From assembly GCA_003566715.1 (NCBI GenBank), contig PXCF01000003.1, positions 1 to 35,814 on the forward strand: DNA of 35,814 nt, in the 5' to 3' direction. The notes beneath the pieces are model-generated. The model worked only from the letters and a program-made list of their open reading frames with translations. It made no database searches and was not told the DNA's origin. Source of the stretch: Cryomorphaceae bacterium. Lineage in GTDB: Bacteria > Bacteroidota > Bacteroidia > Flavobacteriales > Schleiferiaceae. Shown piece after piece: positions 1 to 301 of this stretch. The position numbers were made by a program, and so were the translations under genes. How positions within the stretch are numbered: the stretch's first letter is position 1; each line of letters opens with the position of its first letter.

Positions 1-24
1 AGGGAGGTAATCCCCCTCTCACCG
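1..24 (+). tRNA. 3' end of an upstream tRNA-Ser copy (partial)
   Basis: The window opens inside a gene whose last bases match the 3' part of the complete tRNA-Ser(GCT) that follows. Bases 1-44 are identical to 150-193. They cover the last bases of the T-loop insertion, the 3' T-stem strand, the 3' acceptor strand, the discriminator G and 20 nt of downstream flank. The upstream copy therefore carries the same insertion at least at its 3' edge. Its anticodon is outside the window, so its identity rests on the match to the second copy. Confidence 0.65.
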
Positions 25-44
25 CAATTGAAATGTGAATACCA

Positions 45-193
45 TTAACGTGAGATGGGTGAGTGGCTTAAACCATCAGTTTGCTAAACTGCCGAACGGT
101 AACACGTACCGGGGGTTCGAACCGGAACGAAGTGGAGCTCACCGACCGTAGGGAGGTAATCCCCCTCTCACCGCAATTGAAATGTGAATACCA
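45..193 (+). repeat. 149-bp tandem duplication unit holding the tRNA-Ser gene
   Basis: The 44 bases at 1-44 recur exactly at 150-193 and the identity stops at the same point in both (ttaac follows one, cacaa the other). This fits a tandem duplication with a 149-bp period whose unit spans 45-193 and includes the whole tRNA and its 3' flank. Only the end of the first unit is in the window, so copy number is unknown. Confidence 0.65.
49..173 (+). tRNA. tRNA-Ser(GCT) with a 38-nt insertion in the T-loop
   Basis: The anticodon arm has stem CAGT/ACTG and loop TTGCTAA, giving anticodon GCT, which reads the serine codons AGC and AGU. A D-stem GGT/ACC, a long class II variable region typical of tRNA-Ser, an acceptor pairing GTGAGA (50-55) with TCTCAC (166-171), and discriminator G173 agree. 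The T-stem is GGGGG (111-115) with CCCCC (161-165). The loop between them is 45 nt (116-160) instead of 7: it starts TTCGA and ends AAT as a normal T-loop would, with about 38 extra bases in between. CCA is not encoded. Pairs 1:72 (C-C) and 27:43 (T-C) are mismatched and the variable stem is short. It could be a gene with an intervening sequence that is removed, a tolerated expansion, or a decayed copy. Confidence 0.7.
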
Positions 194-220: not shown

Positions 221-293
221 CGGGGTGTGGCGCAGTTGGTAGCGCACCTGGTTTGGGACCAGGGGGCCGCTGGTTCGAGTCCAGTCACCCCGA
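221..293 (+). tRNA. tRNA-Pro(TGG)
   Basis: This is a canonical 73-nt cloverleaf. The acceptor CGGGGTG pairs fully with CACCCCG (286-292), the anticodon stem CCTGG/CCAGG closes the loop TTTGGGA with anticodon TGG, and the T-arm is CTGG-TTCGAGT-CCAG. The discriminator is A293. CCA is not encoded. Its intact 7-nt T-loop contrasts with the tRNA-Ser just upstream. The two genes are 47 nt apart and probably co-transcribed, ending at the terminator that follows. Confidence 0.97.
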
Positions 294-301
294 CTTTAAA
301 A

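Follow-up and report, generated by a model that had tools for sequence, protein, structure and literature searches.

A probable tRNA-Ser(GCT) hybrid carrying a dispersed hairpin repeat in its T-loop

Does a 38-nt stretch in the T-loop of a bacterial tRNA-Ser(GCT) represent an intervening sequence that is removed, an expansion that the tRNA tolerates, or the trace of a pseudogene? These three options were offered by a first-pass annotation of the DNA analyzed here (the window, 35,814 nt), which is contig C32 of a 2.46-Mb draft genome in 153 contigs (G000) from a Cryomorphaceae bacterium. Known bacterial tRNA introns are mostly group I introns located in the anticodon loop, and tRNA introns also exist in archaea.

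The interrupted copy and its intact counterpart

The first 300 bases of the window contain, in order, the tail of an element, a spacer, a tRNA-Ser-like body, a 45-nt T-loop, the T-stem and acceptor 3' strand, a second spacer and tRNA-Pro(TGG). The tRNA-Ser-like copy (about 50–173) starts with GTGAGAT at position 50, has the anticodon GCT and reads GGGGG TTCGA...AAT CCCCC across its T-arm. Its degenerate 5' part, up to the T-stem 5' strand and the TTC, occupies 50–118 of the forward strand, and the T-stem 3' strand, acceptor 3' strand, discriminator and CA follow at 161–175 on the same strand. Alignment with an intact tRNA-Ser(GCT) gene from the same genome gave a single gap of 38 nt, located in the T-loop. 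The sequence thus bears out what had been annotated, including a CTCACCG motif at 139–145.

The copy differs from the intact gene in two further respects: position 76 is T instead of G, which breaks an anticodon-stem pair, and position 95 is A instead of T, which breaks a pair of the variable arm. When we required a working tRNA-Ser(GCT) to have intact stems and a normal T-loop, the window copy failed. It scored 19.5 bits with the Rfam tRNA model (RF00005, cut-off 29), and its fold was no better than that of shuffled sequences (z -0.39). ARAGORN called only the tRNA-Pro(TGG) in the window, leaving the interrupted copy uncalled, and an Rfam cmscan of the window gave, besides that tRNA-Pro, only matches under the gathering score. 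The tRNA-Pro gene (221–294, forward strand, 68.7 bits) is intact. Further downstream, positions 415–2106 of the minus strand encode an ordinary secreted Bacteroidota protein of 563 aa, in which DUF4397 domains accompany a Por_Secre_tail sorting domain.

The intact tRNA-Ser(GCT) gene lies on contig C14 (301–214, 58 bits), in a genome whose tRNA-Ser set also includes TGA and GGA. The first-pass annotation had pointed out that the cell would have to cope with the interrupted gene if it were the sole GCT tRNA, and had named an intact gene elsewhere, combined with a silent locus, as the sign of a pseudogene; this gene removes the first concern and provides half of the sign. Since it presumably supplies the tRNA, the cell would need neither to splice nor to use the interrupted copy. 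Together with the stem-breaking substitutions and the score under the cut-off, it supports the pseudogene option.

The neighboring contig and the tandem array

Once reverse-complemented, the end of C14 reads intact tRNA-Ser, spacer, element X (described below), spacer and the 5' part of a second tRNA-Ser. This end matches window positions 3–117 at 98%, and C14 and C32 are therefore very likely neighbors in the genome. The two contigs differ at 4 of the 117 overlap positions (1, 2, 95 and 111), suggesting two or more units that differ from each other, assembly noise being the alternative. Positions 1–44 of the window (forward strand), which hold the 3' part of a preceding repeat copy, the tRNA-Ser 3' end and a spacer, recur without a single change at 150–193. 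From this perfect 44-nt direct repeat, with its 149-bp spacing, it follows that the interrupted copy belongs, as a single unit, to a tandem array that the end of the contig truncates. The array is bounded on both sides by contig ends of the draft, so its copy number and exact order are provisional.

Element X and the likely joint

Element X is a hybrid of about 84–85 nt between the 3' end of tRNA-Ser and a repeat, E, and it is located between tRNA-Ser(GCT) and tRNA-Pro(TGG). It was found in three of five congeneric genomes, namely G000, G001 and G004; in the last two the locus reads tRNA-Ser(GCT), spacer, X, spacer, tRNA-Pro(TGG). In G002 and G003, tRNA-Pro directly follows tRNA-Ser without X, i.e. 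the site at the tRNA locus is empty. In G004, X opens with GGTGAGAGGGGGATGAGAACCC, a reverse-complemented tRNA-Ser 3' end bearing a few changes. Next come GGGGTTC, a stretch of 42 nt with TAAT at its end, and CCCCCTCTCACCGC. The latter is the T-stem and acceptor strand of tRNA-Ser, and the 42-nt stretch of X is thus in a T-loop. The 3' strand at window positions 161–175 is common to the intact tRNA-Ser and X.

The window copy corresponds to the right part of X attached to the 5' part of tRNA-Ser. The longest word that this 5' part shares with X, GGGGTTCGAA, is 10 nt long and lies at the junction (112–121, forward strand), where it is the likely recombination joint. We conclude that window positions 50–173 are probably a non-functional tRNA-Ser(GCT) hybrid, one that belongs to a short tandem array flanked by the intact tRNA-Ser(GCT) and tRNA-Pro(TGG) genes.

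The hybrid could instead be an assembly artefact, in which repeats were mis-joined at a draft contig end and the true locus is tRNA-Ser, X, tRNA-Pro as in G004. This explanation fits the location of the hybrid, no more than 175 bp from the start of the contig, and the fact that the neighboring contig, too, stops inside the repeat. However, the joint comprises only 10 shared bases, and usual assembly word lengths far exceed 10 bases. Moreover, the X tail, the spacer CAATTGAAATGTGAATACCATTAACG and the tRNA-Ser 5' part are present on both contigs, as are the spacer TTAACG and the substitution T76. We therefore consider such an artefact unlikely.

Repeat E

The 38 extra nucleotides (an insert at about 119–160) belong to E, whose model positions 1–45 match window positions 116–160 (forward strand, T-loop TTC included) at 68.6 bits and an E-value of 2.8e-16 with RNA model R1; the window copy was itself among the 11 copies from which the model was built. 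The model has 6 matches in G000, 5 in G004 and 20 in G001, a single marginal one in G002 (E-value 0.054) and none in G003. Nearly all copies, in three of the five congeneric genomes, are away from tRNAs: no tRNA was found in the scanned flanks of the intergenic copies, the tRNA-Ser locus aside. The congeners with X are precisely those three with multiple copies of E, which supports the view that X is an E-derived product.

E consists of two small hairpins (NN-GNA-NN) in direct order. For the second, TCANCGACCGNAGGGAGNTAAT (139–160, forward strand), 14 matches were found among 396 genomes of the order; the two outer Ns were complementary in 14/14, with all four Watson-Crick types represented. 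On the alignment, the pairing of this hairpin held in 96.6% of cells, versus 87.9% when shuffled and at most 57% when slid. Folded alone with DNA parameters, E showed nothing beyond shuffles (z -0.23), a value that is not decisive because the energy model is not known to reward the added stability that GNA triloops and tandem G.A pairs confer.

E is multi-copy, extragenic and hairpin-forming, as REP-type elements are. A search of G000 for a Y1_Tnp/RAYT transposase (PF01797) gave no match, and mobilization of E by such a protein in that genome was rejected on this ground. No clean pair of filled and empty sites was found for dispersed E: the flanks of the copies on C121 and on G004 C28 match relatives on one side only or in another gene order.

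These results bear on whether the copy could still work as a tRNA, its short T-loop insert being either tolerated or spliced out as an intron. The T-stem and acceptor strands are indeed still complementary across the insert. Against this stand the intact gene in the same genome, the two additional stem lesions, the score under the tRNA cut-off and the occurrence of E at sites without tRNA. T-loop inserts in the tRNA-Ser(GCT) of relatives, a check proposed in the first-pass annotation, were not found either: no relative locus read holds an interrupted gene, and the congeners' genes there are uninterrupted. A working tRNA is thus extremely improbable. We also rejected assignment to a tRNA intron class, since the insert is not confined to tRNA or host genes and the functional genes of relatives are uninterrupted. 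The annotated insertion in the T-loop accordingly holds as history, the inserted letters being a dispersed repeat, and fails as an intron; a removed intervening sequence is further unsupported since the hybrid can be explained by recombination with a neighboring element shared with two congeners.

Conservation of X

X is conserved above its surroundings: the G004 and G001 elements are identical at 79 of 85 positions (93%), versus 56–60% for both spacers and 48–49% for shuffles. Four of the six differences form two compensated pairs (ACC/GGT to ATC/GAT and CC/GG to CT/AG), and X folds strongly (z -4.6 and -4.5). This conservation would be compatible with an RNA role for X, but gene conversion from the neighboring tRNA and palindrome repair could also account for it.

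Along with the covariation of the hairpin, these features are those expected if X and the array were a functional RNA, similar to rtT, released from a tRNA-Ser/X/tRNA-Pro transcript, the window copy being an extra unit. However, X is known from three genomes only, solely where E occurs, its arms could stay alike through the conversion and repair just mentioned, and among the seven loci compared with Rfam, X included, no family but tRNA reached the gathering score. We regard a functional RNA as a rather doubtful reading. A phage origin of X was sought among phage records and viral contigs, which gave no match.

Related hairpins at other tRNAs

In the order, an E-like hairpin core also directly precedes duplicated 3' ends of tRNA-Arg(TCT), tRNA-Pro(TGG) and tRNA-Met. 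The tRNA 3'-end copies found at these hairpins are exact over 13 to 25 nt (at least 35 nt between Arg units), and the duplicated blocks all start around T-loop position 58–60. In G000, a tandem array of 60-bp units lies downstream of tRNA-Arg(TCT) (C97:18927–19115 and C62:1–60; L094, L099). Every unit combines the hairpin GGATCACGACCGAAGGGAGTAATCC with the 3' end of this tRNA, AATCCTGTCGCGATCACTA, and the array reaches the end of both contigs. The tRNA-Arg(TCT) of G001 has one unit (L101). Downstream of tRNA-Pro(TGG) in a different family of the order (L073, G095, reverse strand), the hairpin GGATCACCGACCAAAGGGAGGT and the tRNA-Pro 3' end form repeated units. In G083 (L102, 1500–1540), the same hairpin core precedes TCTCGCTCTCGCT, which copies the tRNA-Met 3' end, about 150 bp past the tRNA gene. 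Tandem units holding the 3' end of the upstream tRNA were therefore found for Ser, Arg and Pro. Hairpins near tRNAs without a copied 3' end were observed in G312 and G130, and many others lie elsewhere.

The duplicated Ser, Arg, Pro and Met blocks run from the T-loop to or past the tRNA 3' end, as would attachment-site remnants of integrases that use the T-loop or 3' end of tRNAs. Yet the units measure about 60–180 bp with no genes between copies, and the same hairpin precedes each block and also occurs away from tRNAs; such remnants are a highly unlikely source. Tentatively, and with considerable doubt, a hairpin class with a conserved GA-CC-GNA-GG-GA core, in a Flavobacteriales-like order, may recurrently attach to tRNA genes (Ser, Arg, Pro and Met) at their T-loop and 3' ends, building 3'-end arrays, and may in one genus have become a conserved structured RNA, X, of the tRNA-Ser/tRNA-Pro transcript.

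Proposed origin of the hybrid

The hybrid is likely a decayed tRNA copy holding a dispersed hairpin repeat, and its sequence can be accommodated by three steps. In the first, whose product is common to three species, a duplicated 3' end of tRNA-Ser would have received E in its T-loop, possibly by way of the AAT letters common to the T-loop and the flanks of E. This would have yielded X, composed of an antisense tRNA 3' end followed by T-stem, E, T-stem' and acceptor strand. In the second, seen only in this genome, the tRNA-Ser/X segment would have undergone tandem duplication, and through recombination or deletion at GGGGTTCGAA, which both share, the 3' part of X would have become attached to a 5' part of tRNA-Ser. 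Finally, the hybrid would have decayed, acquiring the stem-breaking mutations observed at positions 76 and 95, while the intact upstream gene presumably supplies tRNA-Ser(GCT).

Comparison with known systems

The rtT repeats of E. coli tyrT (Rfam RF00391) are reportedly tandem, downstream of the tRNA gene, and each contains a tRNA 3' end. Here too, tandem repeats containing the tRNA 3' end lie 3' of a tRNA gene; they differ from rtT in unit sequence and length, and also in having, ahead of each 3' end, a hairpin repeat with further copies scattered across other sites. None of the seven loci matched RF00391 at the gathering score, and in the literature on rtT/tyrT repeats and T-loop inserts we found nothing on the present case. 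The resemblance to tRNA introns is limited to the presence of extra sequence within a tRNA gene: unlike introns, this sequence is 38–45 nt long, has no intron structure, is dispersed at non-tRNA sites and occurs beside an intact gene.

The case can thus be struck from the candidates for a new class of tRNA introns in bacteria, which shows the value of checking the neighboring contig. The main interest, a modest one, would lie in the tRNA-associated repeat rather than in the interrupted gene. The hairpin arms of this repeat covary, and in several families it is attached to 3' halves of tRNAs, four different ones in all; were such joining general, it would be a simple route to tRNA 3'-end arrays and tRNA pseudogenes.

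By description rather than by consensus sequence, E resembles the GTAG and CGTC repetitive extragenic palindromes, which are short, intergenic, hairpin-forming, dispersed and often paired (PMC3733652). It differs from them by its two small hairpins in direct order, its modest number of copies (5–20 per genome) and the absence of Y1_Tnp/RAYT from G000.

Lastly, E copies of G001 and G004 (e.g. L121, L124, L127 and L123) often sit in arrays of units of about 7 bp (AATGTAA, AATGTAG, AATTGAG). Tandem units of this length around many E copies recall the heptanucleotide direct repeats (unit TAACTGA) of some Bacteroidetes, Cyanobacteria and Beggiatoaceae (PMC4679880), but the units here are AATGTAA- or AATTGAG-like, and the window copy of E is flanked by tRNA sequence.
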